Made by a program: the position numbers and the translations under genes. A stretch of DNA of 64,000 nucleotides from Aminobacterium sp. MB27-C1. GTDB taxonomy: Bacteria; Synergistota; Synergistia; Synergistales; Aminobacteriaceae. Under the pieces are notes generated by a model that did no database searches, had not been told where the DNA came from, and was given only the letters and a program-made list of their open reading frames with translations. Of the stretch, positions 40,111 to 56,553 are shown piece after piece; the stretch's first letter is position 1; every line of letters starts with the position of its first letter. The stretch is from contig NZ_CP133089.1 in assembly GCF_030908405.1 (NCBI RefSeq), positions 62,001 to 126,000 on the forward strand. The letters run 5' to 3'.

Positions 40111-40135
40111 AAGAGAGAGGCAAAAATAATAGAAT

Positions 40136-40174
40136 CAAAAAGACCCATCATCTTTTTCTGCATGGGTCTTTTTG
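40136..40174 (+). terminator. Attenuator between binding-protein and permease genes
   Basis: Perfect 13-bp stem (CAAAAAGACCCAT / ATGGGTCTTTTTG) with a 13-base loop, ending in a T-run. It lies inside the operon, 26 bases after the binding-protein stop, and should reduce downstream transcription. Confidence 0.8.
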
Positions 40175-40204
40175 TTGCTTTTGTAAAGATTGGAGGTTCC
40201 ACTA

Positions 40205-40873
40205 TTGCCTGGGTTCGATATAGATTTTGCGGTCATGCTCTTTCCTCTCATGCTCAAATATCTCAAAGTAACCTTATTGCTTTCTATAGGGGCTGCTTTT
40301 TGGGGTATTTTAGCGGCAGTCTTCATTGCGCTGTGTATTGATTTAAAGGTAAAGTTACTGGCCCCTTTCGTAAAAGTTTATGTCTCTTTTTTTAGAGGTA
40401 CCCCGCTCATAGCTCAATTGTTTTTGATGTATTTTGGATTCGTGCAAGTTATCCCAAGTTTCAAAAATATGTCTTCTTTTACGGCAGCGTTGATTGTCTT
40501 GAGTTTAAATGCAGCGGCTTTTATGTCTGAAACAATACGAGGTTCCATATCCTCGGTCAATAAAGGACAAATGGAGGCCTGTGTTTCTGTAGGAATGTCA
40601 TATTTGCAAGCGATGCGAAGAGTTATTCTCCCTCAGGCAACACGAGTCGCGATTCCGGCTCTTTTTAATAGTTTTATTAGCATAGTAAAAAATTCATCTT
40701 TGGCTTTTACCATAGGTGTTACGGAAATGATAGCTGTTGCCCAGCTAGAAGCGGCGTCAAGTTATAGATATTTAGAAGCTTTTATTGATATTGCTGTTGT
40801 TTATTGGGCATTAACGCTTGTTTTAGGAAAGGTGCAACAACGTATTGAACGAAATTTAAGTGTTCAAAATTAA
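40205..40873 (+). CDS. Polar amino acid ABC transporter permease (HisM/GlnP-like)
   Basis: A 222-residue permease of the polar amino acid group: FFRGTPLIAQLFLMYFG and the family EAA loop QMEACVSVGMSYLQAMRRVILPQATRVAIPA. Start: TTG 40205, with TGGAGG 8 bases upstream; the TTG at 40190 overlaps this site. Forms a homodimer or pairs with itself, as only one permease gene is present. Confidence 0.9.
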   Translation: MPGFDIDFAVMLFPLMLKYLKVTLLLSIGAAFWGILAAVFIALCIDLKVKLLAPFVKVYVSFFRGTPLIAQLFLMYFGFVQVIPSFKNMSSFTAALIVLSLNAAAFMSETIRGSISSVNKGQMEACVSVGMSYLQAMRRVILPQATRVAIPALFNSFISIVKNSSLAFTIGVTEMIAVAQLEAASSYRYLEAFIDIAVVYWALTLVLGKVQQRIERNLSVQN

Positions 40874-40892
40874 GATTTAGGTGGTTTGTCAA

Positions 40893-41630
40893 ATGATAGA
40901 AATTAAGAGTTTATATAAAAGTTTTGGAGATCTGAAAGTTTTAAAAGACATCAACCTCAATGTTAAAAAAGGAGAAATAGTTGCAATTATAGGCCCTTCC
41001 GGAACTGGAAAATCAACATTACTAAGATGTATAAATTTTTTGGAGGAAGCAGATAAGGGAAAAATTCGAATAGGTGCCATTGAGGTGGATGTAGAAAAGG
41101 CGGCAAAGAAAGAGATAAGGGAACTTCGCCAACAGACAGCGATGGTATTTCAATCCTTCAACCTCTTTAATAATAAAACTGTTTTGGAAAATATCATAGA
41201 AGCCTTAATTATAGTGAAGAAAGAAAACAAGAATCAGGCAGTTGAAAAAGGACTTCAGATTTTAGAGAAAATCGGACTTAAGGATAAAGCAGATTCATAT
41301 CCATCCAAACTCTCTGGCGGTCAGCAACAACGTGTAGGTATAGGTAGGGCTATTGCGCTTAACCCTAAGGTTATTTTATTTGATGAGCCTACTTCCGCCC
41401 TTGATCCGGAGCTTGTCGGAGAAGTCCTTGACCTTATTCGCGAGCTTGCTCATGAGCATATGACCATGATGATTGTTACTCATGAAATTGCCTTTGCCAA
41501 AGAAGTGGCCGACACGGTAGTTTTTATGGACGAGGGAAGGATTGTTGAAACTGGCAGTCCTAAAGAGATATTTGCATCTCCTAAAAATCAGAGAACAGAG
41601 CAATTTTTGAGCCGTTTTACGAAGCAATAA
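40893..41630 (+). CDS. glnQ: Polar amino acid ABC transporter ATPase (GlnQ-like)
   Basis: A 245-residue ATPase: Walker [16 protein letters not shown]-loop MVFQSFNLF, signature [16 protein letters not shown], Walker [16 protein letters not shown], switch His [17 protein letters not shown] 40893 follows AGGTGG. Completes the importer at 39310-41630. The gene symbol denotes family resemblance only; the transported amino acid is unknown. The Tm-1-like gene follows after 88 bases in the same direction with no terminator visible. Confidence 0.93.
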
Positions 41631-41718
41631 CAGAGCAAGTATACTTTCTCTCTTCAGTATGGCGACATTATTTTTTGTATAATTAAAGAGTCAATCATGA
41701 TAGTAGAGGAGGGGAATG

Positions 41719-42915
41719 ATGAAAAAGGTTTATGTTGTCGGAACATGCGACACAAAATCCAGCGAATTGCTTTATGTGCGAGATCTTATTCGTTCAGAGG
41801 GTATCGACGCTTTTCTTGTAGATGTTGCCACTCGTCCACACTCCTTTAGCGCGGATATCTTAAACACTCAGGTCGCTTCCCATCACCCCGATAATCCACA
41901 TTTTCTTGGCTCTATCACAGATCGAGGACAAGCCATTATAGCTATGTCACAGGCCTTGTCCGCTTTTCTTTCACAACAGAATGACATTGCAGGCGTTATT
42001 GGCCTTGGCGGTTCTGGAGGAACCTCTCTTATTACGGCAGGTATGAGAACTCTTCCAATTGGAGTTCCTAAACTTATGGTTTCTACTGTGGCGTCAGGCA
42101 ATGTGGCTCCTTATGTGGGGCCTAACGATATTTGCATGATGTACTCTGTAACCGATGTAGCTGGCCTCAATCGTATATCTCGTATAGTGCTTGGGAATGC
42201 TGCTCATGCTATTGCCGGTATGGCGAAAACAACGATCCCAGCGCCATCCATAGAACGTGAACCAGTAGGCATGACAATGTTTGGAGTGACCACTCCCTGT
42301 GTTGATATGATTCGTCACGAACTGGAAAAAGAATATGATTGTCTTGTATTTCATGCTACAGGAACGGGCGGTCAGTCTATGGAAAAGCTCATTGATTCTG
42401 GTATTCTCAAGAAAGTAATAGACGTGACTACAACTGAAGTTTGTGATCTTTTCATGGGCGGTGTTATGAGTGCTGGGGAAGATCGTTTCGGAGCAATTAT
42501 TCGAATGGCCATTCCCTATGTTGGTTCTGTAGGCGCCCTTGATATGGTTAATTTTGGTGCTTTAGAGACTGTTCCAGAGAAATATAAAAACCGCAATCTT
42601 TATGTTCATAATCCTCAGGTAACATTGATGAGAACTACTGCTGATGAGAATGCCCGGATGGGACGCTGGATCGGAGAAAAGCTTAACCACTGTTCAGGGC
42701 CTGTACGCTTTTTGTTGCCAGAAAAGGGTGTTTCGATGATTGACGCTCCAGGTCAGCCCTTCTATGATCCCGATGCGGATGCCGTTCTTTTCGAGGCTAT
42801 CGAAGAAACGGTGTATCAGACTGACATGCGCAAAGTTATCTGCTTACCCTATCATATTAACGACCCGGAATTTGCTCAGGCGCTGTTTCAGAATTTTAAG
42901 GAGGTTGCGAAATGA
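41719..42915 (+). CDS. Tm-1-like ATP-binding protein (UPF0261)
   Basis: A 398-residue UPF0261 protein: [19 protein letters not shown] at the N-terminus, [20 protein letters not shown] and [29 protein letters not shown], then ATTEV-like [17 protein letters not shown]. The family is named after the tomato Tm-1 resistance protein N-terminal domain; bacterial members are of unknown biochemical role and nearly always accompany the TIM-barrel partner found next. ATG 41719 has better spacing to GGAGGGG than the ATG three bases before. The stop overlaps the next start (ATGA). A TATAAT at 41678 may be its -10 box. Confidence 0.88.
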
Positions 42916-43742
42916 CCTATAAAACACGATCTGAAATAATGTCATTTTTTAGAGAAAAAGTAAGTAAGAAAGAACCTATTATAGGCGGCGGTGCAGGAAC
43001 CGGCATCTCTGCCAAGTGGGAGGAAGCTGGCGGCATCGACCTCATTGTCATATATAATTCTGGCCGTTACAGAATGGCTGGAAGAGGTTCTCTTGCGGGG
43101 CTTCTAGCCTACGGAAATGCTAATGAGATTGTAAAAGAGATGGCCAGAGAAGTTATTCCTGTGGTGAAAAATACGCCAGTATTAGCTGGGATCAATGGAA
43201 CTGACCCTTTCGTAAAATGGGACTACTTTCTAAGTGAGTTGAGAGCTCTGGGATTCGCGGGAGTTCAGAATTTCCCTACCGTAGGTCTTATTGACGGAGT
43301 CTTCAGAGCGAACCTTGAAGAAACTGGAATGGGATATGCCCTCGAAGTTGAAGCTATTCGTATGGCACGAGAGATGGATTTACTTACAACTCCCTACGTT
43401 TTCAGTGTTGAAGATGCCATGGCCATGACTGAAGCTGGAGCCGATATTATCGTATGCCATATGGGACTCACCACAAAGGGTGGCATTGGAGCCCAGACAT
43501 CAAAAACGTTGGAAGAATGCGTGCCTCTTATTGATCAATGGGCAGAAGCGGCGAGAAGCGTTCGTAAAGATGTTATAGTCCTCTGCCACGGAGGCCCTAT
43601 CGCTATGCCAGAAGATGCTGAATATATTTTAAAACATTGTAAAGAGGTTAACGGGTTTTACGGCGCAAGCAGTATGGAACGTCTTCCAACTGAACAAGCC
43701 ATAAAAAAACAGACAGAACTTTTTAAAACAATAAAATATTAA
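42912..43742 (+). CDS. Phosphoenolpyruvate hydrolase-like TIM-barrel protein (Tm-1 partner)
   Basis: A 276-residue TIM-barrel protein of the PEP_hydrolase-like family. Features: [88 protein letters not shown] and VLCHGGPIA. Close homologues are annotated as signal-transduction or phosphoenolpyruvate hydrolase proteins, with little experimental support. The ATGA overlap with the UPF0261 gene implies a complex or sequential reaction. Its position behind an amino acid importer suggests a catabolic role. Confidence 0.87.
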
Positions 43743-43812: not shown

Positions 43813-44553
43813 TTAGTTCGGGTTTTTTATGCTTCCCAAAGTGTCTTTTTCGGTCTTTGTACGTTTTGATTTTTTATGAAGACGTTCCAGAATCTCATCT
43901 TGACCACGTGAAACGTGCCTATGAATAATTTCTCGCGCTTTTTCTGAATCCCGGTTTTTAATAGCTTGGCAAATTTCCATATTTTCTTTTCTATGTTGTT
44001 TTAAAGCTTCTGGACTAAAATTTTTAAAGATAAGCCTTTGTGTTGCCAGTTCATTTCTGATTGATTCCAAGAGCCTCAAAATGAAGCGATTCCCTGCCAT
44101 TTCAGCTAAAATATTATGAAACTTGTTGTGTATATCGGCATCTGGATTTTTTTCATTTTCAAGTAAGAGCTTTTCCAGCTTCTCTATCTCTTCTGATGTG
44201 GCGCGTTCCGCAGCCCAATAGGCAATCTGACCTTCCAGTAAAGATCGAGCTTCAACAAGTTCTTTTAAGGTCGATTCTTCAAAAAGATTCGCGACAAATT
44301 CCATATTAGCGATGTTACGAAGAGCGTTTAGCGATAAATACGTTCCGTCTCCAGGGTGTGCTTCTACAATTCCGGATAATTCCAATGCTTTCAATACTTC
44401 CCTGATGCAATTTCTACTTACGCCGAATGTTTTCGCGAGTGACTGTTCACCGGGTAGTTTCATCCCAGGTTCCCAAACGCCTTTTTTTATTGCCTCTATA
44501 ATTTGATTAAGAACATTCTCATGAAGTGTTGATTTACTTGCAGGCTTGAACAT
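43813..44553 (-). CDS. GntR-family (FadR/FCD) regulator, tandem copy 1
   Basis: A 246-residue regulator. Winged helix at about 8-75, including SLAKTFGVSRNCIREVLKAL and GDGTYLS, and an FCD ligand domain from about 85 (EARSLLEGQIAYWAAERA, FHNILAEMAGNRFIL). ATG 44553 is chosen because AAGGAGGACTTT precedes it. The protein is a close paralogue of the next gene upstream; their recognition helices are the same. Two genes in tandem, divergent from the TRAP/Grd operon at 45558, point to control of that operon. Confidence 0.92.
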   Translation of the reverse strand: MFKPASKSTLHENVLNQIIEAIKKGVWEPGMKLPGEQSLAKTFGVSRNCIREVLKALELSGIVEAHPGDGTYLSLNALRNIANMEFVANLFEESTLKELVEARSLLEGQIAYWAAERATSEEIEKLEKLLLENEKNPDADIHNKFHNILAEMAGNRFILRLLESIRNELATQRLIFKNFSPEALKQHRKENMEICQAIKNRDSEKAREIIHRHVSRGQDEILERLHKKSKRTKTEKDTLGSIKNPN

Positions 44554-44665
44554 AAAGTCCTCCTTGCTTGACATAAATTTCTCTAATTAAGTTTATACTA
44601 CATTGAACTCAATAAAGCGATTAAAACCTTAACTTATTCTACTACATAATAAAATATATTACTTT

Positions 44666-45370
44666 TTATACTTCTTTCCTTCTGCCTTCTCTCCTGTTTC
44701 TTTCTAATATTTCATTTTGTGAGCGGAGAAGGTGTTGAATCATAGCTTCCTGAGCTTTTTCAGGGGCTCTTTCTTTTATGGCCTGACAAATTTCCCAATG
44801 ATCTTTTTTAAATAGTTCTAATTCGGTAGATGGCCATGATTTAAAAACAATTCTTTGAGCAGAAACTTCTGTGCGAAGAGAATCGAGAAGACGCAACAGA
44901 AAAGGATTGCCTGCAATTTCTGCAAGGTAATTATGAAAGTGATAGTGAACTTCCACATTTGGTGTTTCTGGCTCCTCAACCAAGATGCGTTCGAGATTCA
45001 TTATTTCTTCATCGCTTGCACGTTGTGCTGCCCAGTAAGCGAGTTGTCCCTCCAACAATTGGCGAGCCTCTATAAGTTCCATAAGTGTGCTTTCTTCGAA
45101 AAGAGAAGCCACAAGATCCGAATTGGCAATGTTGCGCAGTGCATTTTCAGAAAGATAAGTTCCGTCACCAGCCCGCGCTTCTACTATTCCTGTAAGTTCA
45201 AGAGCTTTTAAAACTTCTCTAATGCAATTTCGGCTTACTTCAAAGGCGTTTGCCAGACTTTGTTCCCCAGGAAGTTTGCTTCCCGGTTCCCATTCATTTT
45301 CTTTTATTGCGGTAATCATTTGATTAAGTACATTTTGATGCAAAGTTGCTTTGTTAGCAGGTTTAAACAT
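44666..45370 (-). CDS. GntR-family (FadR/FCD) regulator, tandem copy 2
   Basis: A 234-residue paralogue of the regulator at 43813, with nearly the same DNA-binding domain (SLANAFEVSRNCIREVLKAL, GDGTYLSENALRNIAN) and a more diverged FCD domain (EARQLLEGQLAYWAAQRA, FHNYLAEIAGNPFLL). GGGGGTC lies before the ATG. Separated by about 110 AT-rich bases from copy 1, enough for its own promoter. Direct repeats in the 187-base divergent region toward 45558 are candidate operators. Confidence 0.92.
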   Translation of the reverse strand: MFKPANKATLHQNVLNQMITAIKENEWEPGSKLPGEQSLANAFEVSRNCIREVLKALELTGIVEARAGDGTYLSENALRNIANSDLVASLFEESTLMELIEARQLLEGQLAYWAAQRASDEEIMNLERILVEEPETPNVEVHYHFHNYLAEIAGNPFLLRLLDSLRTEVSAQRIVFKSWPSTELELFKKDHWEICQAIKERAPEKAQEAMIQHLLRSQNEILERNRREGRRKEV

Positions 45371-45424
45371 AGGGACCCCCTGTATTCAATACAATTTATT
45401 TCTAAATTTTTTATTTTTTCTATA

Positions 45425-45472
45425 TTGACGTTATTAAATGACTGTGATAATGTTCAATTGTTCAACAGCAGT
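45425..45472 (+). promoter_or_regulatory. Candidate promoter and direct repeats of the Grd/TRAP operon
   Basis: TTGACG at 45425 and an extended -10-like TGTGATAAT ending near 45450 are followed by two copies of TGTTCAA one base apart. The repeats could be operators for the divergent GntR pair. The -35/-10 spacing is short, so this is tentative. Nothing else clear lies in 45371-45557. Confidence 0.35.
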
Positions 45473-45557
45473 GCAGAAGAACATTGTTACTATACGGCAC
45501 CTTTTACAATCAGTAAAGCAAAAATATCATTAAACTACAATGAAGGGGGAAGACTCT

Positions 45558-46553
45558 ATGAAAACGTTGTTATTGAGCCAAGATGAAATCAAAGAGCTTA
45601 TCACAATGAAAGACGTAGTAGAAGCCTGCGACAAAACCTTCCAAGGTATGGGCGATGGAACTGTTGTAAACCCCACAAAAGTTAACCTTGATCTCGGAGA
45701 AACGGCACCATTCCCACCATATAGCGGATTTATGAACGCTATGCCAGCTTACGTCGGATGGTCAGACACGGCAGGCATAAAATGGGCCGGAGGTTTCCTA
45801 GGAGAACGTAAAAAGGCTGGCCTTCCCTATATTACCTCTCTTATTATGCTTATTAATCCCCAAATGGGCAACTTTACGGCTGTATTAGACGGATCTTATA
45901 TTACAAATATGCGTACCGGTGCGCAAACTGCTGTTTCCCTCAAATATCTTTATCCCAAAAAATCTCTTCGTTTAAGCCTTTATGGAGCCGGAATGCAGGG
46001 ACATACCCAGACAATGGCTATTTCTGAACTTTTCGATTTAGAGGAAGTACGTGTATACGACATTAGCAAAGCTTCTGCAGAGCGTTACGCTTCTGATATG
46101 GAGCCATATGTGAAAGGAAAAATTCACATTGCCGAAACACCTGAAGAGGCTGCCGATGGTGGTGACGTAGCAGTTTGTGTAACTCAGTCTAAAGAAAAAT
46201 TCTTTAAAAATGAGTGGTTTAAACCAGGCAAATTGCTTTTCCCCATGGGCTCTTACCAGGAATGTGACAACGATTGCATATTAAACGCTGATAAGATCAT
46301 TGTTGATCACATTGGACAGACCCTTCACCGTGGAGCCCTTGCCGAGCTCGGTATAGCCGGAAGAATTACAGAAAAAGACATTTATTCTACCATTGGCGAA
46401 CTGGCCGCAGGGAAGAAAAAGGCATCAGTTGCTGACGGTGAAAAAATCCTTTGTATTCCTATTGGAACAGGTGCTATGGATATTGGCGTTGCTTCTGTTG
46501 TTCTTGAGCGCGCACGTAAGAATAACATTGGAGGGACGTATGAATTCGTGTAA
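45558..46553 (+). CDS. Ornithine cyclodeaminase/mu-crystallin family enzyme
   Basis: A 331-residue NAD(P)-dependent protein. NPTKVNLDLGETAPFPPYSG and MPAYVGWSDTAGIKWAGGF form the substrate domain; LDGSYITNMRTGAQTAVSLKYL and LYGAGMQGHTQTMAI (Rossmann motif) are diagnostic. Family members include ornithine cyclodeaminase, alanine dehydrogenase, ketimine reductases and lysine cyclodeaminase, so it forms or breaks a C-N bond next to a carboxylate. ATG 45558 follows AAGGGGGA. It heads the operon carrying a TRAP importer and Grd proteins and probably processes the same imported amino or imino acid. Confidence 0.87.
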   Translation: MKTLLLSQDEIKELITMKDVVEACDKTFQGMGDGTVVNPTKVNLDLGETAPFPPYSGFMNAMPAYVGWSDTAGIKWAGGFLGERKKAGLPYITSLIMLINPQMGNFTAVLDGSYITNMRTGAQTAVSLKYLYPKKSLRLSLYGAGMQGHTQTMAISELFDLEEVRVYDISKASAERYASDMEPYVKGKIHIAETPEEAADGGDVAVCVTQSKEKFFKNEWFKPGKLLFPMGSYQECDNDCILNADKIIVDHIGQTLHRGALAELGIAGRITEKDIYSTIGELAAGKKKASVADGEKILCIPIGTGAMDIGVASVVLERARKNNIGGTYEFV

Positions 46554-46635
46554 CAAGTAGCGTCACAATGCATGATGGGTGTCATATGGCGAGTGTGACA
46601 CCCATATTTAAAAAGTCGAGAGGGGAGGGAATTAC

Positions 46636-47178
46636 ATGTCTGAACCGAAGGGCCTTTTTAGCAATATTTTGCATTGGGCGGGACAAGCCCAAGATATGGT
46701 ACTTGTTTTCCTTATGTCGTTTATTGCTATTCTCGTTTTTGGCCAGGTTGTTTTAAGATACGTATTTAAAGCGCCTCTTATGGGAATAGAGGAATTGCTT
46801 CTTTTTCCTACCACATGGGCCTACCTCATAGGCTCCATCAAAGCTTCAGCTGATAAGAATCAAATAGTAGCCCGCGTGCTTGAAGTTTTTATGAAAAAAC
46901 AAAAAACAATCTATTTAGTACGAACTGTTGCTTCTGTTTTAAGTGGGATCGTTCTTATCTGGCTTTCCTACTGGGGATATGACTATCTTAAATATGCGTT
47001 GAGAGTGCAAAAAGAGAGTCCAACTCTTTTTATCCCCATGATATGGTCTGAAGCTTTGGTTTTTATAAGCATGGCTTGTATGACTTTTTACACCGTTCTT
47101 GAATTTTTAGAACACCTCAATAGTTTTGTCCACACACCCAAAGATATGTTGGCCCAAACGGAAGAGGAGGTTTTTTAA
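46636..47178 (+). CDS. dctQ: TRAP transporter small membrane subunit (DctQ-like)
   Basis: A 180-residue four-span protein: VFLMSFIAILVFGQVVLRYVFK and GIEELLLFPTTWAYLIGS are typical of DctQ. It partners the large subunit whose ATG follows its stop directly (TAA then ATG). GGGGAGGG lies upstream of the ATG. With DctM and the DctP protein at 50139 it forms a sodium-driven importer. Confidence 0.9.
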   Translation: MSEPKGLFSNILHWAGQAQDMVLVFLMSFIAILVFGQVVLRYVFKAPLMGIEELLLFPTTWAYLIGSIKASADKNQIVARVLEVFMKKQKTIYLVRTVASVLSGIVLIWLSYWGYDYLKYALRVQKESPTLFIPMIWSEALVFISMACMTFYTVLEFLEHLNSFVHTPKDMLAQTEEEVF

Positions 47179-48483
47179 ATGATATCTGTTGCACTTGTAG
47201 CGTTGCTTATTCTTGTTGTATTCCTCTCCTTTGGAGTGCCTTTGCCTTTCTGCTTTGGTGGAGCCCTCATGTATATGAGTATTGTCGGCGGAGTTTCAAT
47301 GAAAGGTATGATGATGTGGGGGTTGCAACAAATTTTAAGTCCAGTTCTTTTGTGTGTTCCTCTATTTATCTTTGCAGGAAGCCTCATGAGTCAAAGTGGC
47401 ATTGCGAAATATCTTCTTGACTTAGTTGATGTTTTTGTCGGACGAGTACGTGGTGGTTTAGGTGTTGTAGCCGCTATAAGCTGTGCCATTATTGGAGCTA
47501 TTTCAGGCAGTGGCTTTACGGGTGTTGCAGCAACTGGCCCCATTCTCATTCCACGCATGGTCGAGCAGGGGTATCCAAGAGGATATGCAACAGCACTAGT
47601 TACCGACTCTTCAATTTTGGGACTTCTTATTCCTCCAAGCGTCATTATGATCGTTTATGGGTGGGTAACAGAAACGTCGATATTAGCGTGCTTTTTAGCG
47701 ACAGTTGGTCCCGGAATTCTTGTCACCATTCTTTTTTCTGTAATCAACCTTGTATGGGCCAAGCATTTTCCTCTTAAACTGGAACCTGAACTTAAAAAAG
47801 AAGAAAAGGTACGCGAAATAGCCCGTCGTGGTTGGAAGGCCTTACCTGCTCTTATGATGCCCGTTATTATTCTTGGCGGTATCTATGGAGGCATTATGAC
47901 TCCTACAGAAGCGGCGGCAGTTGCCGTTATCTATGCTATCCCAGTAGGATTTTTGATTTATAAAGGTCTTAAAGCTAAAAATTATTACGAAGTGGCCAGA
48001 GATTCCGCTATCTCGGTAGGATCAATCATGGTTATGATCTTGTGCAGCCTCATGTTGAGTCAAACCTTTGTTATGCTGCAAATTCCTCAGGCTATTGTCA
48101 AAGCCATGTTCGGAATTACCCAGAGTAAGGTCATACTTTTAATTCTTATTAATTTCCTTCTTTTCTTTATCGGAATGATAGTTAACGACCTTACGGGAGT
48201 TATTCTGGTTGCCCCTCTGCTTTTACCTCTGGCTCAGGCCATTGGAATTCATCCGATTCACTTTGCTTCAATTCTCGGAGTTAATCTTGCAGTTGGCGGT
48301 GTTACCCCTCCCTATGCAAGCATTCTCTATCTGGGAATGAAAATAGGTAATGTGGAGTTCGTAGAAATATTGCGACCTGCCATGACTTTCCTCCTGTTAG
48401 GGTATGTACCTGTGATGATCCTTACGACATTTTGGCCGGCGCTATCGCTCTTCCTGCCTGGTCTCATGGGGTATGTGCAGTAG
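47179..48483 (+). CDS. dctM: TRAP transporter large membrane subunit (DctM-like)
   Basis: A 434-residue protein with about 12 spans. Hallmarks: FGVPLPFCFGGALMYMS, CAIIGAISGSGFTGVAATGPILIPRM, DSSILGLLIPPSVIMIVYG, GGIMTPTEAAAVAVIYA and the C-terminal GVNLAVGGVTPPYASILYLG. It uses sodium to carry a carboxylate-bearing substrate. Immediate neighbours suggest an amino-acid-like substrate, not a C4-dicarboxylate. Confidence 0.93.
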   Translation: MISVALVALLILVVFLSFGVPLPFCFGGALMYMSIVGGVSMKGMMMWGLQQILSPVLLCVPLFIFAGSLMSQSGIAKYLLDLVDVFVGRVRGGLGVVAAISCAIIGAISGSGFTGVAATGPILIPRMVEQGYPRGYATALVTDSSILGLLIPPSVIMIVYGWVTETSILACFLATVGPGILVTILFSVINLVWAKHFPLKLEPELKKEEKVREIARRGWKALPALMMPVIILGGIYGGIMTPTEAAAVAVIYAIPVGFLIYKGLKAKNYYEVARDSAISVGSIMVMILCSLMLSQTFVMLQIPQAIVKAMFGITQSKVILLILINFLLFFIGMIVNDLTGVILVAPLLLPLAQAIGIHPIHFASILGVNLAVGGVTPPYASILYLGMKIGNVEFVEILRPAMTFLLLGYVPVMILTTFWPALSLFLPGLMGYVQ

Positions 48484-48516
48484 TAAGTGCCGTGTTTGTA
48501 AAGGAGAGTGAAAAGC

Positions 48517-50124
48517 GTGACCCTTTGTCGAAATCGAACGAGACTCGTTAGTCTTTTTGATTCACTCGGTCCCATAATGACCGGACCTTCAAGTTCTCAT
48601 ACAGCAGGAGTTCTTCGCATTGGACGTATGGGATGTTCCTTTCTTGGAGGAGAACCGGAAAAAGTAGACCTCTTTTTCTACGGGGCGCTGGCTGAAACCT
48701 ATAAAGGGCACATGAGTGACTCTGCCATAGTTGGTGGCTTACTTGGTATGCATGAGGATTCGCCTGAGATAGGTGATGCTTTGGCTATTGCGGAGCAAAA
48801 AAATATCCCCGTATCTTATCACCTGGAACCACTGTCAGAGAGGAATCCTAACACAGTAGATATGCTGCTAACCGATAAAAAGCATTCTGTTCGTGTTGTT
48901 GGAATCTCAGTCGGTGGTGGCGAGATTCTCATGACAGAGTTGGAAGGATACCCGATCTCTTTACGTGGAAGTGAAGACGGAGTTGTCTTTATTGCCGAAA
49001 GTGATTTTTCAATAAAAACGCTTTCGGAGGTTTTAAAAGTCTCTGTTATCTCTTGCGAGAAGAGCGTTTCTTCTGATTCAAATGTTAAGGATTGTTTATA
49101 TACCTGCCTTACAGAAAAGAGTTTAAAAAAAGAACAACTCAATGAACTGGAAAAGGTTACGGGGATTAAGAGAGTATTTTCTCTTTCTAGCTTGCTTGAT
49201 TATAAATTGAAAGACGATATGCCTCTTTTCTCCTCATTTCAGGGATGGATCGATTACGCTTCATCGCACCAGATATCTTTAGCTGAAGCTGCCATAGCCT
49301 ACGAAACAAAAAGAAGTGGTCTGACAAAAGAGTTTATACGCTCAAAAATTCAAGATGCATGGAAGGTTATGAGTCAATCAGTTTCTGATGGGATGAAAGA
49401 AAATTTGACTCTACTGGGAAATCTTATGCCTCATGATGAAGGTTTGAAGCTTATGAAATTAGTGGAACAAAAACGGGCTCTGTCTGGACCTACAGTTGGC
49501 AAATCCATAGCAAGAGCATTAGGAGTAATGACTCTCAATGGGTGTATGGGGTGTGTTGTGGCAGCGCCAACGGCCGGATCATGTGGAGTGTTGTCAGGGG
49601 CTCTCTTCACAGCAGCGGAGTACTTGAATTCAGAAAGCTCTCAGATAGAAGATGCTTTGCTCGTTGCAGCAATGGTCGGAGCCTTAATTGCTATGAGAGC
49701 TCCTGTTTCCGGCGCGCTAGGTGGGTGCCAGTCAGAGATTGGTGTTGCTTCGGCTATGACTGCATCTGCGTTGGCACAGCTTTCTGGCGGATCAGAGAGT
49801 CAGATTGTACATGCAGCATCTCTGGCCTTGAAAAACATTCTGGGGCTTATCTGCGATCCCGTAGCTGGACCAGTAGAAATTCCGTGTATCAAGCGTAATG
49901 CCATTGGTGTTGCTAACGCATATGCAGCTGGCGATATGGCGGTTGCGGGCATAGAAAGCATCATTCCGCCAGACGAAGTAGTAGGTGCTCTCATCAATGT
50001 TCAAAAGCTTCTACCTGTTGAATTAAGGGGAAGTATGCGTGGTGGTTTGGCTTCAACGCCTACAGCGGAGAAGCTTAAAGAAAAATGGTTCGCAAAATTG
50101 GCAGCAAAGAGTCACAAATCATAA
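48517..50124 (+). CDS. L-serine ammonia-lyase (iron-sulfur, single chain)
   Basis: A 535-residue fused beta-alpha L-serine dehydratase. Beta domain: SLFDSLGPIMTGPSSSHTAG and FYGALAETYKGHMSD; an ACT-like middle; alpha domain from about 270 with GCMGCVVAAPTAGSCGVLSG, APVSGALGGCQSEIG and LICDPVAGPVEIPCIKRNA, whose cysteines hold the [4Fe-4S] cluster. It converts serine to pyruvate and ammonia. GTG 48517 has proper spacing to AAGGAG; the in-frame GTG at 48508 lies on the site. Located between the TRAP subunits and DctP, so serine or a serine-like compound may be an intermediate of this pathway. Confidence 0.94.
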   Translation: MTLCRNRTRLVSLFDSLGPIMTGPSSSHTAGVLRIGRMGCSFLGGEPEKVDLFFYGALAETYKGHMSDSAIVGGLLGMHEDSPEIGDALAIAEQKNIPVSYHLEPLSERNPNTVDMLLTDKKHSVRVVGISVGGGEILMTELEGYPISLRGSEDGVVFIAESDFSIKTLSEVLKVSVISCEKSVSSDSNVKDCLYTCLTEKSLKKEQLNELEKVTGIKRVFSLSSLLDYKLKDDMPLFSSFQGWIDYASSHQISLAEAAIAYETKRSGLTKEFIRSKIQDAWKVMSQSVSDGMKENLTLLGNLMPHDEGLKLMKLVEQKRALSGPTVGKSIARALGVMTLNGCMGCVVAAPTAGSCGVLSGALFTAAEYLNSESSQIEDALLVAAMVGALIAMRAPVSGALGGCQSEIGVASAMTASALAQLSGGSESQIVHAASLALKNILGLICDPVAGPVEIPCIKRNAIGVANAYAAGDMAVAGIESIIPPDEVVGALINVQKLLPVELRGSMRGGLASTPTAEKLKEKWFAKLAAKSHKS

Positions 50125-50138
50125 AGGAGGCGGTAACA

Positions 50139-51155
50139 GTGAAAAAGTTTTTTGCAGCGTTGTTGGGGATTTCTTTTGTTTTCGCAGCTCTCTCTATGGT
50201 CGGTGGGCAGGCTATGGCTAAAGAAAAATCGTATACGTGGAAAATCTCTCATATCCGCCCGGCAGATACGGCAATTGACAAAGATGTGAAATGGTTTGCA
50301 GAGAAATTAGAGCAGGAATCCAATGGTCGTATCAAGCTTCAGATATTTGATAATGCTCAGCTTGGCGATTACACCGTTGTACACGAGAGAGTCAGTGTAG
50401 GCGCTGTAGAAATGGCTATTCAGCCAGTTGTTACAACCGCTGATAAAATGCTTCAGATTCTTAACCTTCCTTATATTGTTAGTGACTGGGAAGGCGTTAA
50501 GAAAAACTATGTAAGCGGTACGCCTCTTATGAATTGGGCTGCTGAAAGATATGCCAAACAGGATCTCAAAATTATTAGCGTATGGCCAGTCTATTTTGGT
50601 GGAACTGCTCTTATGAAAGAACCTAACAAACCTGGAGATCCTTCAGTATCCAAGGGGTTGAAGGTTCGTGTCCCGACTCAAAAGGCTTTTGAATTGTTAG
50701 CTGATGCACAGGGATATATGGCAACTCCTCTTGCATTTGCAGAAACATTTACAGCTTTGCAGACAGGTATCGTTGATGGTGCTTTTGGTGCTGGTGCTGA
50801 AGGCTATTATGCAAATTTCCGTGACATTATCAAATGCTACGTTCCATCAAATACACATTTTGAACAGTGGTATCTCATTATGAATATGGAGCTTTGGAAC
50901 TCTCTTTCCAAAGAAGATCAGGCACTTATCTCCAAATTGGCTCTTGAAATGGAAAATCGCCGAGTAGCTCAGGCTGAAGCAGATCAGGCTGCCAATGAGA
51001 AACGTATGGAAGATTACGGAATCAACGTTATACGTTTAAGCGGAGAAGAGCTAGGAGTTTTGACTCAGAACGCACGTGAAAAAGTATGGCCCGAGATGAG
51101 AAAAATATTGGGAGAAAAGAATTTCGACGAGGCAGTAAAACTCGTTCTCGATTAG
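50139..51155 (+). CDS. dctP: TRAP transporter substrate-binding protein (DctP-like)
   Basis: A 338-residue exported binding protein: signal peptide with cleavage after AMA (near residue 26), WKISHIRPADTAIDKDVKWFAEKL, GRIKLQIFDNAQLGDYTVVHERVSVG, KGLKVRVPTQKAFELLADAQG and TALQTGIVDGAFGAGAEG. The conserved Arg of KVRVPT normally pairs with the substrate carboxylate. GTG 50139 after AAAGGAGG; earlier in-frame codons lie within the serine dehydratase gene. Unusual gene order: binding protein is separated from dctQM by the dehydratase. Confidence 0.92.
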   Translation: MKKFFAALLGISFVFAALSMVGGQAMAKEKSYTWKISHIRPADTAIDKDVKWFAEKLEQESNGRIKLQIFDNAQLGDYTVVHERVSVGAVEMAIQPVVTTADKMLQILNLPYIVSDWEGVKKNYVSGTPLMNWAAERYAKQDLKIISVWPVYFGGTALMKEPNKPGDPSVSKGLKVRVPTQKAFELLADAQGYMATPLAFAETFTALQTGIVDGAFGAGAEGYYANFRDIIKCYVPSNTHFEQWYLIMNMELWNSLSKEDQALISKLALEMENRRVAQAEADQAANEKRMEDYGINVIRLSGEELGVLTQNAREKVWPEMRKILGEKNFDEAVKLVLD

Positions 51156-51167
51156 TAAATGTTTTAG

Positions 51168-51193
51168 GCAGGGGCTTCAAGCCCCTGCTTTTC
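51168..51193 (+). terminator. Intra-operon hairpin after dctP
   Basis: 8-10-bp GC-rich stem (GCAGGGGC / GCCCCTGC, extendable by AA/TT) with a 5-base loop and TTTTC. Probably a partial attenuator, since AAGGAGG of the next gene follows directly. Confidence 0.65.
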
Positions 51194-51207
51194 AAGGAGG
51201 AAGTATC

Positions 51208-52479
51208 ATGGCTGAATCGTTGCTGACTATTCTTAAAAAAGAAGTTAATCCTGCGCTTGGATGTACTGGTCCAACCTCTGTTTCTTTTGCGACAAGTGTT
51301 GCTCGTGCAGCTGTTGGTGGAGAAGTTGAGTCTGTCACTGTTGTAATGGATAGAGATACGTATAAAAATTCCATCGCTGTAGGTATTCCTGGAACAAAAC
51401 TTATGGGACTCGACATTGCAGCATCTCTTGGTGCTGTAGCTGGCGACGCTGAGGCTGGACTTGAAGTTTTGCATAACGTGACAGAAGAAGATGAAAAAAA
51501 AGCTGTTGATATGTTACCTAAAACTCTTATTTCTATTGATTGGAGTCGTAAAGAAGTCGGTCTCTACATTGATGCTAGCGTAAAAACTACAAAGGGCATT
51601 GGTCAAGCAGTCATCGTCAAAACGCATACAAATGTAGTTCTTGTCAAAGCTAACGATGAAACGATATTAAGCAAACCTGTAGAAGAAAAGGCCTCTTCCG
51701 ATTATTCAAAAGACGCTATTCTTTCTTACGTCCTTAAAGATCTTTATACATTTGCTTTAAATGAACCTGTTGAGAATTTATACTTCCTCCATAATGCCAT
51801 TTCCATGAATGAAAGCCTGGCTCTTGCTGGCCTTGAGCAGCAGGCAGGCGGTCGTTTTGGTCAAGGTTTTCTTGATTATCCTTACGCCAATTCGATAACT
51901 AAGGCAAAAGCCCTTACTGCAGCTGCATCAGATGCCCGTATGGACGGGGTAGGCTTGCCTGCCATGAGTTGTGCGACCAGTGGAAATGTTGGCATTACAG
52001 CTTCCCTTCCTCTCGTTGTTATGGCTCGCGAACTTGAAGCGAACCAAGAAGTTCTCATTCGAGCACTCGCCTTGAGCTTTCTTGTAACGATTTATCTGAA
52101 GAGTCATATTGGTCGTCTTTCTCCCATGTGTGCCTGTGCAATAGCAGCAGGATTGGGTGTAGCAGCAGGTATGGTGGTGGAATTAGGCGGTTCTTTCGAA
52201 CAGGTCGAAAAGGCCATTAATACCGTTGTGGGAAGTATTGGCGGAGTTTTATGCGATGGAGCAAAACTTGGTTGTGCAATGAAATTGGCAAATGCAGTAG
52301 GGACGGCTATCGAATCTGCATATCTTGCAATGAACGATATATCCATTCGTCCAGGCGATGGCCTTGTCTGTGAAAGGGCAGATGACACTATAGCTATTCT
52401 TGGCCGAATAGCGAGAAGGGGTATGGCACCTGCCGACGAAGAAATGTGTCGCGCCATTATTGAACGCGAACAGGCTTAG
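51208..52479 (+). CDS. CyuA/UPF0597-family Fe-S lyase, second copy
   Basis: A 423-residue paralogue of the protein at 35993: NPALGCTGPTSVSFATSVARAA, IAVGIPGTKLMGLDI, AASDARMDGVGLPAMSCATSGNVGIT, GRLSPMCACAIAAGLGVAAG and GVLCDGAKLGCAMKLA. Thr-Glu-Pro of the first copy is Thr-Gly-Pro here, so the substrate may differ. The Cys positions likely ligate a [4Fe-4S] cluster. Position in the Grd operon suggests a beta- or alpha,beta-elimination on the imported substrate or on a product. AAGGAGG precedes the ATG; grdE starts 12 bases after its stop. Confidence 0.88.
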   Translation: MAESLLTILKKEVNPALGCTGPTSVSFATSVARAAVGGEVESVTVVMDRDTYKNSIAVGIPGTKLMGLDIAASLGAVAGDAEAGLEVLHNVTEEDEKKAVDMLPKTLISIDWSRKEVGLYIDASVKTTKGIGQAVIVKTHTNVVLVKANDETILSKPVEEKASSDYSKDAILSYVLKDLYTFALNEPVENLYFLHNAISMNESLALAGLEQQAGGRFGQGFLDYPYANSITKAKALTAAASDARMDGVGLPAMSCATSGNVGITASLPLVVMARELEANQEVLIRALALSFLVTIYLKSHIGRLSPMCACAIAAGLGVAAGMVVELGGSFEQVEKAINTVVGSIGGVLCDGAKLGCAMKLANAVGTAIESAYLAMNDISIRPGDGLVCERADDTIAILGRIARRGMAPADEEMCRAIIEREQA

Positions 52480-52491
52480 GAGGAGTAAAAG

Positions 52492-53784
52492 ATGGAAACC
52501 TTGAAGCTGAGACGAATTAAAGTAGCAGACGTGCAATTTGGTTCAGTTACAGAAATTCAGGGAAAAACGCTTTTTATCAATAAAGAAGAACTCATCTCTC
52601 TTCTGCTCGAAGATAAACAGCTTCAAAGTGTTGATGTTAAGTTGGCGAGGCCCGGGGAAAGCAAACGAATAGTTCCTGTAAAAGATGTGATTGAACCACG
52701 GACAAAATTAGACGAAAAGACATACACCTTCCCGGGCTTTTTTTGTGATCCCGATTTTATTTCTGGTCGAGGAACGACTATTGTCCTTGATGGTGCTGCC
52801 ATCGTAACGTCAGGAAAACTTGTCAATTTTCAGGAAGGGCTTATCGACATGTCTGGCAAAGGGGCAGAGTATAGTGTCTTTTCGAAGAAAAATAATATTG
52901 TGCTTCTCTTCGAGCCCGTTCCTGGCCTGGGAAAACATGAACATGAACGAAGTGTACGGAACGGCGGAGTGAAAGCTGCTCGCTTCATTGCCGAAGCTGT
53001 TAAAAATTTCGGGGAATATGAAGAGGCAGAATATCCTGCAGCAACATTACTTGAACTTCTAGGTAGCAATGCTGCATTACCAAAGGTCGTCTATATTTGT
53101 CAGACCATCGCTCAGGGCCTGCTTCATGACAATTACTTTTATGGACTCAATGCCCAGGGGTGTCTTCCTGTGCTTATGAATCCAACGGAGCTTATGGACG
53201 GAGCAGTGGTAAGCGGAAACTGTGCGGCCCCCTGCCACAAGCACACCACTTACCACCACCAGAACAATCCCATTATAGAAGACCTTCTCTCTGAACACGA
53301 GAAAAAAATAACATTTCTTGGAGTTATCGTTGCACCTGTTCGTACTGCTTTTGTGGAAAAGGAAAGAATCTGTAATCAGGTTTTTAAGATAGCTCAGATG
53401 ATAGGAGCGGAAGGAGCCATTGTCTCTGAAGATGGAGGCGGCAATCCTGAAGCTGATCTTATGATGCTCACGAGACTCTTTGAAAAGAATGGCATAAAAA
53501 CTGTGTTGGTGACAGATGAATATGCTGGCTCTGATGGCGCTTCTGCCGGTCTCGCCGATGTAACGCCTGAAGCTGATGCTGTTGTGACGAATGGAAACGG
53601 TAATGAGCGAGTAATTCTTCCTCCTATGGATGAAGTTATTGGGCACATTGAATGTGTTGATGTAATTACTGGCGGTCATTCGGGAAGTTTGCTTCCTGAT
53701 GGGTCAGTTGCTATGGAAATAGCTGGCATCATGGGGTCGACGAACGAATTAGGAACAGAAAACCTCACCACTTGGGCCATATAG
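52492..53784 (+). CDS. grdE: Glycine/sarcosine/betaine reductase-type component B, pyruvoyl proprotein (GrdE-like)
   Basis: A 430-residue GrdE/GrdG/GrdI-family proprotein. In the characterised enzymes it is cleaved before a Cys that becomes a pyruvoyl group, giving two subunits of about 25 and 22 kDa. The processing region is visible as SGNCAAPCHKHTTYHHQNNP with Cys244 and Cys248 as candidates, consistent with that split. Later: ADAVVTNGNGNERVILPPMD and DVITGGHSGSLLPDGS. Together with GrdB it binds the substrate amine and cleaves the C-N bond. Stop at 53784; grdB starts 11 bases later behind AGGAGG. Whether the substrate is glycine, an N-methyl glycine or another compound is not decidable from sequence. 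Confidence 0.93.
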   Translation: METLKLRRIKVADVQFGSVTEIQGKTLFINKEELISLLLEDKQLQSVDVKLARPGESKRIVPVKDVIEPRTKLDEKTYTFPGFFCDPDFISGRGTTIVLDGAAIVTSGKLVNFQEGLIDMSGKGAEYSVFSKKNNIVLLFEPVPGLGKHEHERSVRNGGVKAARFIAEAVKNFGEYEEAEYPAATLLELLGSNAALPKVVYICQTIAQGLLHDNYFYGLNAQGCLPVLMNPTELMDGAVVSGNCAAPCHKHTTYHHQNNPIIEDLLSEHEKKITFLGVIVAPVRTAFVEKERICNQVFKIAQMIGAEGAIVSEDGGGNPEADLMMLTRLFEKNGIKTVLVTDEYAGSDGASAGLADVTPEADAVVTNGNGNERVILPPMDEVIGHIECVDVITGGHSGSLLPDGSVAMEIAGIMGSTNELGTENLTTWAI

Positions 53785-53795
53785 GAGGACAGACG

Positions 53796-55106
53796 ATGAC
53801 TAAGGTTAGAGTAGTTCATTACATGAATCAATTCTTCGGACAAATAGGAGGGGAAGACAAAGCTGGTATTCCTCCTTTTGCGACAAACGATCCAGTAGGT
53901 ATTGGTAACGTTTTTCAACTTGCATCGAATAATCGCTACGTTATCGTGAAAACCATTATTTGCGGAGATAACTACGCGGCAGAAAACCTTGAAGAAGTAA
54001 AAGCAAAGGTTCTTGAATGGATTAAAGAAGAAAATCCAGATCTGTTTATTGCAGGTCCCGCTTTTGCTGCTGGTCGTTATGGCACTTCATGTGGAACTTT
54101 ATGTCAGGCAGTTATAACGGAATTGGGTATTCCGGCAATAAGTGCAATGCATCCAGTTAATCCTGGCGTTGATATTGCCAAGAAAGATATGTTTATTGTC
54201 GAAACGGGCGACTCGGCGCGAGAAATCTCATCAGTTGTGCCTAAAATGATTCGCCTTGCTGACAAAGTGCTCAATAAAGAGCCTATTGGCGGCCCGGAAG
54301 AAGAGGGATACATTCCGAGGGGCATACGGATAAACGTTCGTAAAGCTAAAAGAGGTTCTCGTCGGGCAGTGGATATGCTCGTTAAGAAAATGAATAACGA
54401 GTCCTTCACAACAGAGCTCCCCATGCCGGTTTTTGATACAGTTCCTCCGGCTCCGCCTGTCTCTGATATGAGTGACGCAATCATTGCCATAGGTACGGAG
54501 GGAGGAATAGTTCCTCGCGGCAACCCTGATCGTATTGAAGCTCATAACGCATCTAAGTGGTGTCACTATTCCATAGAAGGCATTGAAAGCTTGAAAAAGG
54601 GCGATTACGAAGTTGCCCATGGCGGATATGATCCAGTGCCAGCCAATGAGAATCCCAATCGCGTATTACCTCTTGACGCAGCACGGGTTCTTGAAAAAGA
54701 AAAGGCCTTTGCACGACTCCATAATGAATATCCAGTAACTGTGGGAAATGTTACCGCCGTAAAATCAGCAGAGCGCTATGGAAAAGAAATGGGAGAAATG
54801 CTGATGAGCCAAGGGGTGCAGGGCGTAATTCTCACTTCAACCTGAGGAACAGGCACTCGTTGCGGTGCAACGCTCGCTCGCGAAATTGAACGCGTAGGTT
54901 TGCCAGCAGTGCTTATTACGGCTATTCCATCTGTTGCCTTCACTGTCGGAGCCAATCGGATTATTCGCGGGGTAGCTATTCCTTACCCTGTAGGTGCTCC
55001 TTCTGAAGAGCCCGCAGAAGAACTCTATATTCGAAAATGTCTGCTAGAAAGAGCTCTCAAGGCATTGGCAACTCCTATTTCAGAACAAACAATTTTTGAG
55101 GAATAA
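53796..55106 (+). CDS. grdB: Component B selenoprotein subunit (GrdB-like), in-frame UGA = selenocysteine 350
   Basis: A 436-residue selenoprotein read through TGA at 54843-54845. Before the UGA: VRVVHYMNQFFGQIGGEDKA, PAFAAGRYGTSCGTLC, HGGYDPVPANENPNRVLPLD and VILTST. After it the same frame continues GTRCGATLAREIERVGLPAV, SVAFTVGANRI and IPYPVG to TAA at 55104-55106, with clear GrdB homology on both sides. Length and Sec position fit the GrdB family. A hairpin just after the UGA matches a bacterial SECIS. The selenolate is thought to attack the substrate alpha-carbon and pass a carboxyalkyl group to GrdA. GrdA, GrdC, GrdD and the sel genes are not in the window. ATG 53796 is preceded by AGGAGG. 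Residues after Sec read U-G-T-R-C, shorter than the U-G-T-C-T-R-C I recall for classical GrdB. Confidence 0.95.
54843..54880 (+). promoter_or_regulatory. Selenocysteine UGA and bacterial SECIS-like hairpin
   Basis: TGA at 54843-54845, then 18 bases to a 3-base loop GGT (54864-54866) closed by a 5-bp stem GTTGC / GCAAC plus a C-G pair; an outer GGC/GCT helix can form below an internal loop. A G at the first loop position and a UGA-to-loop distance near 17 bases are the features SelB recognises in known bacterial SECIS elements. Confidence 0.8.
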
Positions 55107-55108
55107 CT

Positions 55109-55453
55109 ATGTTGGTTCTATCGAATAATCCTCGGGTGATCAGCGCCTATTCATGTGTAGAGTCAGTTGAGGGTACGGCGATTCAGGTTCTCGAAGCCGC
55201 ACAAAGATACATTTATACAGGATATACGCTTTACGGACATCCTTTGGCAGGTAACGCCCGCCTCTGTAGAAATCCATATCGTTCCGTTGCCCTTGAAGAA
55301 GGCCACAATGAAATATGTGTCCGGTCAGTCCTTTGGATAGAAGATGCTTTAGATCGTCTTTCCCGTGGAGAGTTCGATGCAGATAGCTCGAAAAGTGACG
55401 ATTACAGTCTTATCGATTTCGATTTATTTCTATCTATGATCCATATACATTGA
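55109..55453 (+). CDS. grdX: GrdX-family protein
   Basis: A 114-residue protein: VLSNNPRVISAY at the N-terminus and TLYGHPLAGNARLCRNPYRSV in the middle match GrdX, a small protein of unknown biochemical role that is found only next to glycine/sarcosine/betaine reductase genes. Two bases after the grdB stop, so co-transcribed. Supports that GrdE and GrdB here form a genuine reductase operon. Confidence 0.88.
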   Translation: MLVLSNNPRVISAYSCVESVEGTAIQVLEAAQRYIYTGYTLYGHPLAGNARLCRNPYRSVALEEGHNEICVRSVLWIEDALDRLSRGEFDADSSKSDDYSLIDFDLFLSMIHIH

Positions 55454-55467
55454 GGGGAGGACTAACT

Positions 55468-56553
55468 ATGAATCATAAATTTGCAGTACTTGGAAGTGGA
55501 AATGGAGCACGGGCTTTTTGCGCACAGATTGCAGCTAAAGGGTACGATGTTGTGATGTGGGAGCCTCTCGAAGCGACCGAAGATTACAAACGTCTTCGCG
55601 AAGAGAAAAAGATGCATCTCAAGGGAGATATTAATATAGAAGGAACTTTATCTGGAGTAACTATGGATATTGAAGAGGCAATGGATGGAGCAAAGGTCCT
55701 TTTCGTCGTGGTTCCCTCCTTTGCTCATGAACCTATCTTCAGAAAGATGCTTCCCCATCTTAAAGATGGTCAGCATATCGTTGTTGTTCCCGGAAACTAT
55801 GCAGGTTTCAGATTCCGCAAAATAATGAAAGAGGAAGGTATTGATGTAAAGGTATCTATCTCTGAAACAGCATCTATGCCTTATGCATGCAGAATCAGCA
55901 GCTACGATACGGTTATGATCTTCAAAAAGAAATTCAAATTACAGATGGCTACGTCTCCAGTATCCGATACAGAAGAAGTACATCGCATTGTTCAAGACAT
56001 CTTTGAAGGATATGTTGAATATATTCCAGCTGACAACCTGCTTGCCATTGATCTTGACAATATCAATTTTACGTTGCATCCATTCCCAGTACTCTTGAAC
56101 TATGGTGCCATTGAAAAGAATCCTAAGGGGTTCAGGCACTATATGGACGGAATTACTCCTGAAATAGCAAAAATCATGGAAAAGTTAGAAAAAGAGCGCA
56201 TAGCTATTGGTAAAGCCCTTGGAGTACACCTTATAGGCGCTCTTGATCAGTTGAAAATGTTTTATGGAGAAAACGAAGCTCACACATATTATGAGTATGT
56301 GCAGAGTCCGGAGTCGCCTTACGTCGATTTAGTTGGCCATAATATTAAAGGAAGATATTTGACAGAAGATGTACCGGGTGTACTTGTACCGGCCTATCTT
56401 CTTGCCCAGAAGGCAGGATATGATGCTACAACAGTAAAGCTTGCCATCGATCTGGCTTCCAAACTTCACGATGTCGATTATTTGAAGAATGGCACAACAC
56501 TTGAAACATTGGGAATCGCAGATCTTTCCATCGAAGAAATTCTCAATATATAA
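55468..56553 (+). CDS. NAD/NADP octopine/nopaline dehydrogenase-family protein
   Basis: A 361-residue two-domain dehydrogenase. N-terminal Rossmann motif FAVLGSGNGARAFCAQIAAKG (about 5-25); C-terminal octopine-DH domain from about 185 with DLDNINFTLHPFPVLLNYG, containing the conserved His of the catalytic pair, and HTYYEYVQSP. Family members reversibly cleave or form opines (N-carboxyalkyl amino acids) from an amino acid and a 2-oxoacid. ATG 55468 follows GAGGGGAGG, 14 bases after grdX. Its place at the end of the TRAP/OCD/Grd operon suggests the transported substrate is an N-substituted amino acid or that the enzyme balances NADH with a 2-oxoacid. Confidence 0.87.
   Translation: MNHKFAVLGSGNGARAFCAQIAAKGYDVVMWEPLEATEDYKRLREEKKMHLKGDINIEGTLSGVTMDIEEAMDGAKVLFVVVPSFAHEPIFRKMLPHLKDGQHIVVVPGNYAGFRFRKIMKEEGIDVKVSISETASMPYACRISSYDTVMIFKKKFKLQMATSPVSDTEEVHRIVQDIFEGYVEYIPADNLLAIDLDNINFTLHPFPVLLNYGAIEKNPKGFRHYMDGITPEIAKIMEKLEKERIAIGKALGVHLIGALDQLKMFYGENEAHTYYEYVQSPESPYVDLVGHNIKGRYLTEDVPGVLVPAYLLAQKAGYDATTVKLAIDLASKLHDVDYLKNGTTLETLGIADLSIEEILNI

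Follow-up and report, generated by a model that had tools for sequence, protein, structure and literature searches.

The window analysed here is a stretch of 64,000 nucleotides from the single-contig, 2.43-Mb genome of Aminobacterium sp. MB27-C1 (Synergistota), positions 62,001 to 126,000 of contig NZ_CP133089.1 (G000:C1:62001-126000, where G000 designates this genome). It carries a tight operon of ten genes, all on the + strand and spanning window positions 45558-56553, in which a GrdE/GrdB-type pair (hereafter GrdEB), the kind of component B found in Grd-type reductases, is accompanied by a tripartite ATP-independent periplasmic (TRAP) transporter, lyases and NAD(P)-dependent enzymes:

45558..46553, + strand, NAD(P)-dependent enzyme of the ornithine cyclodeaminase (OCD)/mu-crystallin family (PF02423)
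46636..47178, + strand, TRAP small permease DctQ (PF04290)
47179..48483, + strand, TRAP large permease DctM (PF06808; TIGR00786 over cut-off)
48508..50124, + strand, fused beta-alpha iron-sulfur L-serine dehydratase (PF03313+PF03315; TIGR00718 250.9 vs cut-off 243.2)
50130..51155, + strand, TRAP substrate-binding protein DctP (PF03480; a longer open reading frame begins at 50085)
51208..52479, + strand, CyuA-like lyase with a serine dehydratase alpha fold (PF03313)
52492..53784, + strand, GrdE-type pro-protein subunit with the cleavage-site cysteine motif GNCAAPCHK (PF09338)
53796..55106, + strand, GrdB-type selenoprotein of 436 amino acids with selenocysteine (Sec) at position 350 (PF07355/TIGR01918)
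54843..54845, + strand, in-frame TGA inside GrdB, read as selenocysteine, motif STUGTGTRCG
55109..55453, + strand, GrdX-family protein (NF038093 76.6 vs cut-off 40)
55468..56553, + strand, opine dehydrogenase of the octopine/N-(1-carboxyethyl)-L-norvaline dehydrogenase (CENDH) type, with a conserved His/Arg/Asp triad (PF02317)

The families of all ten genes were borne out by Pfam and NCBIfam profile searches. Intergenic gaps measure, in operon order, 82, 0, 24, 5, 52, 12, 11, 2 and 14 nt, and most of the genes are preceded by a ribosome-binding-site-like sequence. Coordinates and profiles agree with the initial annotation of this DNA, which had described ten genes on one strand, separated by short gaps and including an in-frame UGA. 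The absence of GrdA, GrdC, GrdD and trx genes beside the pair, also noted there, holds at the locus, and no GrdA, GrdC or GrdD was found within the window. The operon had been called complete; this stands for a component-B operon but not for a reductase, GrdACD being encoded elsewhere.

GrdB forms a single frame of 436 amino acids if the TGA at 54843-54845 is read as Sec350. This TGA is kept at the same motif in all 15 pairs with a readable GrdB that belong to the window's clade (see below), and a tRNA-Sec above the Rfam cut-off is present in the genome. An Rfam search of the window gave no match, and folding of 53 nt from the UGA as a candidate selenocysteine insertion sequence was no better than shuffled sequences (z 0.59; z -1.79 in the related locus L045), so that the selenocysteine call rests on the conserved TGA, the motif and the tRNA-Sec. 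Two motifs are diagnostic of the clade and present in all its pairs, GNCAAPCHKH in GrdE and STUGTGTRCG in GrdB. The GNC cleavage-cysteine motif is seen in the GrdE of 15/15 clade pairs shown, and the GrdB motif is UxxG (UGTGTRCG) in the clade, in contrast to UxxC (UGTCTRCG) in the glycine, sarcosine and betaine types.

Superfamily membership of both subunits is clear, with PF07355 at 497.4 against a cut-off of 22, PF09338 at 564.8 against 22.2 and TIGR01918 at 538.7 against 65.45. In contrast, the models of the individual reductases were not reached. The pair resembles the glycine reductase GrdE/GrdB in its pro-protein motif, Sec position (350), size and GrdX neighbour, but the window GrdE is only about 47-51% identical, UGTG replaces UGTC, no trx, grdA, grdC or grdD adjoins, and TIGR01917 gives 513.5 against 602.2 (positive control L008, 672.8). 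The sarcosine GrdG/GrdF models are the best-scoring named ones and stand for a component B that acts on a secondary amine, but the scores are 455.7 against 780 (NF040793) and 553.9 against 800 (NF040794), the latter exceeded by the positive control L162 (843.7), which groups with clostridial glycine reductases in a different clade from the window pair. Betaine GrdI/GrdH is likewise a component B feeding a shared GrdACD, but GrdI has no pro-protein cysteine and is encoded with a BCCT transporter, unlike the window pair with its GNC motif and TRAP neighbour; NF040795 gives 469.8 against 775, a strict cut-off, since the same genome's own betaine-type locus L009 scores 739.8. The D-proline reductase models were also rejected (PrdA 63.3 vs 700, PrdB 77 vs 300), and a structure search found no solved GrdE or GrdB.

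GrdE was surveyed in 188 Synergistota genomes, several of them incomplete; outside this phylum, sampling covered the class to which one clostridial genome belongs (391 genomes) and a single family within that class. Window-type GrdE is represented by 16 genes in 14/188 genomes from six families (64-100% identity), and all other GrdE matches in the 188 genomes are at most 51% identical to that of the window. In a tree based on the concatenation of GrdE and GrdB from 61 pairs, the 15 window-type pairs were monophyletic (support 100/100, stem 0.42) and apart from the glycine, sarcosine (L162), betaine and Far (over NF053623) groups. The clade also emerges from single-gene trees built under a mixture model, with an SH-like approximate likelihood-ratio test (SH-aLRT) support of 100 for GrdE and for GrdB. 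Cut-offs and trees together rule out a placement inside the glycine, betaine, sarcosine or Far clades; for the glycine and betaine clades, such a placement had been named beforehand in the initial annotation as the outcome that would count against its proposal.

The remaining reductase components are found elsewhere in the genome, which holds five GrdB, five GrdE and two GrdA genes (at 597224 and 1778136) but a single GrdC (at 599132), with both GrdA, GrdC and GrdD over cut-off. One locus encodes a complete glycine reductase in the order grdX-trxA-grdE-grdA-grdB-grdC-grdD and can supply GrdACD, as had been supposed. Two others are betaine-type loci with GrdI/GrdH and a BCCT transporter, one of them also with grdA, and the fifth GrdEB pair (L011) adjoins an OCD gene and a sodium:solute symporter. 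As GrdACD is encoded only elsewhere, and GrdC only once, the one role left to the window pair is that of a component B borrowing GrdACD. Across the clade, GrdA is over cut-off in 13/14 genomes and GrdC in 12/14, the genomes lacking a match being G007 (56% complete) and G180 (fragmented). We thus consider it very probable that the window pair is a separate, substrate-specific component B using a shared GrdACD, and its product would be transferred to GrdA. Such an arrangement is already known from farACEB, the fluoroacetate reductase of Cloacibacillus, a component B without its own GrdACD that was proposed to feed a shared GrdA/C (PMC10838667), which qualifies the interpretation first given to the window operon.

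Genes within about 9 kb of the clade's 16 GrdE genes were compared with those of 48 other GrdE loci. An OCD gene occurs near 13/16 clade genes (2/48 others), an opine dehydrogenase near 12/16 (2/48), DctM near 13/16 (4/48), a serine dehydratase near 10/16 (0/48) and a CyuA-like lyase near 4/16 (0/48), the latter only in L045, L047/L012 and L055. Fisher values for these enrichments are about 1e-8 and overstate independence, the loci being related by descent. Nevertheless, gene order and orientation vary widely between the families carrying the clade, which argues that the neighbours have been retained by selection. At the genome level, one OCD subfamily (OCD1, at least 63% identity) is present in 11/14 clade genomes versus 5/174 others (p = 8e-12). 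The fullest set is that of L053, with TRAP, two opine dehydrogenases, two OCDs, serine dehydratase and GrdEBX. Trees and neighbour counts therefore bear out the expectation of a distinct clade associated with TRAP and OCD genes.

The window opine dehydrogenase is a member of the NAD(P)-dependent family PF02317 by both domain (127.1 vs 30) and sequence of the triad. Its closest structure is CENDH (1bg6, E 9e-50), and the catalytic His/Arg/Asp, which we take to correspond in number and role to H202/R292/D297 of CENDH, are kept in 36/36 homologues checked. The closest solved structures to the OCD enzyme are an archaeal alanine dehydrogenase (1omo) and a pyrroline-2-carboxylate reductase (6t3e). 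It was rejected as a true alanine dehydrogenase, TIGR02371 giving 206 against 409.15 and all members having Asn at Arg52 of 1omo, presumably the substrate arginine, and it probably has a different activity within the superfamily. Marine-sponge tauropine dehydrogenase belongs to the OCD superfamily, and the sponge strombine/tauropine enzymes have been assigned to PF02423 (PMC4575208, PMC4113996), so that both dehydrogenases of the operon come from families with known opine members. The likeness to CENDH and the sponge enzymes extends to the folds and, for the opine dehydrogenase, to the catalytic triad; in contrast to the window enzymes, however, the known ones are stand-alone NAD(P) enzymes that in animals mainly make opines. 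Among solved binding proteins, the one closest to DctP binds isethionate, while the names of the others say no more than TRAP DctP or sialic-acid protein, and a single-sequence structure model was discarded (predicted local distance difference test score, pLDDT, 47.5).

The nearest lineage outside the clade comprises the clostridial pairs L153, L192, L193, L194 and L164 (concatenated tree 95/96; GrdE tree 96), which to judge from the sequences are its probable sister clade. A PNT-type alanine dehydrogenase lies downstream in 5/5 of these loci (by TIGR00518, L194 is above the cut-off and L153 just below), a distant opine dehydrogenase directly follows grdB in 3/5, and an NhaC-type transporter is found in 4/5. 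A homologous alanine dehydrogenase occurs near 1/62 remaining GrdE loci, about 7 kb away. An unrelated pair, L176 (G009:C2:355000-373000), has the reversed order GrdB-GrdE, a GrdE without the cysteine motif, TRAP genes and an opine dehydrogenase (53% to the ODH2 type), and may be a second recruitment to opine-type substrates. Together with the sister clade, it indicates that the association with opine dehydrogenases arose, or was kept, in more than one lineage.

A pyruvoyl group has been demonstrated for GrdE and PrdA, according to work cited in PMC3091704. The conserved GNC motif suggests that the window GrdE also forms one; with the pro-protein cysteine kept, a primary or secondary amine is expected as substrate, whereas the betaine and fluoroacetate enzymes have no such cysteine. 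By the glycine reductase mechanism, a component B feeding GrdA and GrdCD should leave a carboxymethyl group on selenium, and the substrate should then be an N-substituted glycine. Given the opine dehydrogenases and the neighbours that process alanine or serine, an N-carboxymethyl amino acid is the simplest fit. We therefore tentatively propose, at somewhat under even chances, that GrdEB is the component B for a TRAP-imported, opine-type N-carboxymethyl amino acid, a suggestion drawn from neighbours and motif. Strombine (N-carboxymethyl-alanine) comes first as a candidate, although naming it is a guess and unlikely to be exactly right; N-carboxymethyl-serine is possibly a further substrate. The opine mentioned as a guess in the initial annotation has in this respect gained ground, through the recurrence of opine dehydrogenases in the clade and its probable sister.

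In the proposed pathway, DctPQM would import the N-carboxymethyl compound, processed GrdE would hold its secondary amine via the pyruvoyl group, and the carboxymethyl CH2 would come under attack from the GrdB selenolate, so that an amino acid, alanine or serine, would be set free. The Se-carboxymethyl group would pass to GrdA made at other loci, and GrdCD would yield acetyl-phosphate, hence ATP. Some of the substrate would be oxidised by the opine dehydrogenase and the OCD enzyme, yielding NADH together with a 2-keto acid and an amino acid (glycine or another), and serine dehydratase or a dehydrogenase would deaminate the released amino acid to pyruvate, so that one compound would serve as both Stickland donor and acceptor. 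With strombine, GrdEB would give alanine and acetyl-phosphate, the opine dehydrogenase would give glycine, pyruvate and NADH, and the released amino acids would either end as pyruvate or feed the ordinary glycine reductase.

Several explanations compete with an N-carboxymethyl amino acid that has an alanine half. Alanine or serine with glycine is a classical Stickland pairing, and the neighbours might supply such donors, imported by TRAP, to a divergent glycine or sarcosine component B, with which the best-scoring sarcosine models and a pro-protein motif fitting a primary or secondary amine would agree. This is unlikely, albeit credible: the pair reaches none of the curated cut-offs for glycine or sarcosine and lies outside both clades, the genome already owns a glycine reductase, and the opine dehydrogenase, which does not act as a Stickland donor enzyme on common amino acids, is nevertheless found repeatedly in two phyla. 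The serine dehydratase (10/16) and CyuA-like lyase (4/16), both absent from the 48 control loci, would instead be explained if the N-substituted glycine had another half, as in N-carboxymethyl-serine, N-carboxymethyl-cysteine or a mycosporine-glycine-like conjugate, the lyases consuming the released amino acid. We find this rather improbable, as the clostridial sister loci carry an alanine dehydrogenase instead and the same lyases accompany opine dehydrogenase-OCD cassettes without GrdEB.

Homologues of alanine dehydrogenase and serine dehydratase are also the commonest amino-acid-specific neighbours, as would be expected if another primary alpha-amino acid such as alanine or serine were reduced via a Se-carboxyalkyl to a propionyl-type acyl phosphate. 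However, the only GrdC of the genome sits in the glycine locus, and in known systems the GrdC of such loci acts on carboxymethyl groups; the opine dehydrogenases would moreover be left unexplained, making this explanation very unlikely. A xenobiotic or dehalogenating reductase resembling FarEB is more improbable still. In both systems a GrdE/GrdB-type pair is encoded in a Synergistota operon that has a transporter of its own but no GrdACD, and the UxxC cysteine is missing from GrdB, a loss also reported for FarB. In contrast, FarE has no pro-protein cysteines, which the window GrdE keeps, the pair scores 131.7 against the NF053623 cut-off of 675 (positive controls 793 and 691) and belongs to a different clade, and farACEB comes with an MFS antiporter and a radical SAM protein rather than with TRAP, opine dehydrogenase, OCD and lyases.

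Some observations speak against the N-carboxymethyl amino acid itself. The serine dehydratase is unneeded for strombine, the OCD enzyme stays below the alanine dehydrogenase cut-off without an Arg52 equivalent, and an ordinary Stickland pair would equally show alanine or serine oxidation beside a reductase. Moreover, loci L049 and L052 are minimal, with TRAP and GrdEBX only and no dehydrogenases, the GrdB tree alone does not support the clostridial sister relation (37), and the opine dehydrogenase-OCD-lyase-TRAP cassette also exists without GrdEB, so that the substrates of cassette and GrdEB may overlap without being identical.

Grd-type component B substrates assigned in the literature searched are glycine, sarcosine, betaine and fluoroacetate only; the same search found no opine or iminodiacetate reductase and no opine dehydrogenase beside a selenoenzyme. 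A broader proposal, which we hold to be possible but doubtful, is that of an energy-conserving opine reductase: a selenoenzyme that would reductively cleave N-carboxymethyl amino acids such as strombine, occurring in two phyla with opine and alanine dehydrogenases recruited from different families, through which anaerobes would use opines as electron donor and acceptor alike. If true, this would be a new selenoenzyme cleaving C-N bonds, and opines, with which invertebrate anaerobic metabolism ends, would have a first anaerobic route that conserves energy. What the many orphan GrdEB pairs reduce becomes directly testable with a clade that stands apart and whose partners are consistent.

The cassettes of opine dehydrogenase and OCD without GrdEB often carry TRAP, serine dehydratase, a dehydratase of UxaA type or a CyuA-like lyase, so it appears that GrdEB was added to a catabolic cassette of opine type which is also found on its own. 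One such cassette, with TRAP, CyuA-like, opine dehydrogenase and OCD genes, is found in the genome of the window (L072, G000:C1:1646000-1665000; cassette at 1655279). A UxaA/galactarate-dehydratase-type protein is encoded in L066 (5648-6952), L067 (4998-6464) and L063 (9575-10795); that of L066 is below the TIGR03248 cut-off, and L011 has a similar gene downstream of its GrdEB pair, the fifth in the window's genome.

Upstream of the operon, two regulators diverge from it:

43813..44574, - strand, FadR/GntR-type (FCD) regulator
44666..45370, - strand, second FadR/GntR-type regulator
45371..45557, divergent intergenic region with a promoter-like site at 45503-45530

The intergenic region also contains an imperfect inverted repeat (45444-45455/45479-45490) that, taken alone, is not above chance. 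GntR matches occur near clade loci L045, L046, L047, L049, L051, L054, L055, L057 and L058. Further upstream, window positions 39274-43742 encode an amino-acid-type ATP-binding cassette (ABC) transporter, a UPF0261 (Tm-1-like) protein and a phosphoenolpyruvate (PEP)-hydrolase-like protein; homologues of the latter two (69% and 82% identity) adjoin an OCD/opine-dehydrogenase/TRAP cassette in L070.

Finally, the survey brought up other GrdE and GrdB genes. Further GrdEB clades without assigned substrate are present in Synergistota and Clostridia (L182-L186; L147-L151, L154, L155, L166; L167/L168/L172/L175; L174/L178, both with TRAP genes nearby; L160/L161; L011). L181 (G118:C1:2105000-2122000) carries an intact GrdB beside a betaine-type GrdE that a frameshift has split. 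A clostridial glycine-type GrdE (L196, G430:C30:12058-12804, minus strand), on a contig that also carries grdA and grdC, has an in-frame TGA exactly at the cleavage cysteine (DGAIASGN[TGA]VSACDKN), which is either a selenocysteine at the pyruvoyl-forming residue or a sequencing or nonsense change.

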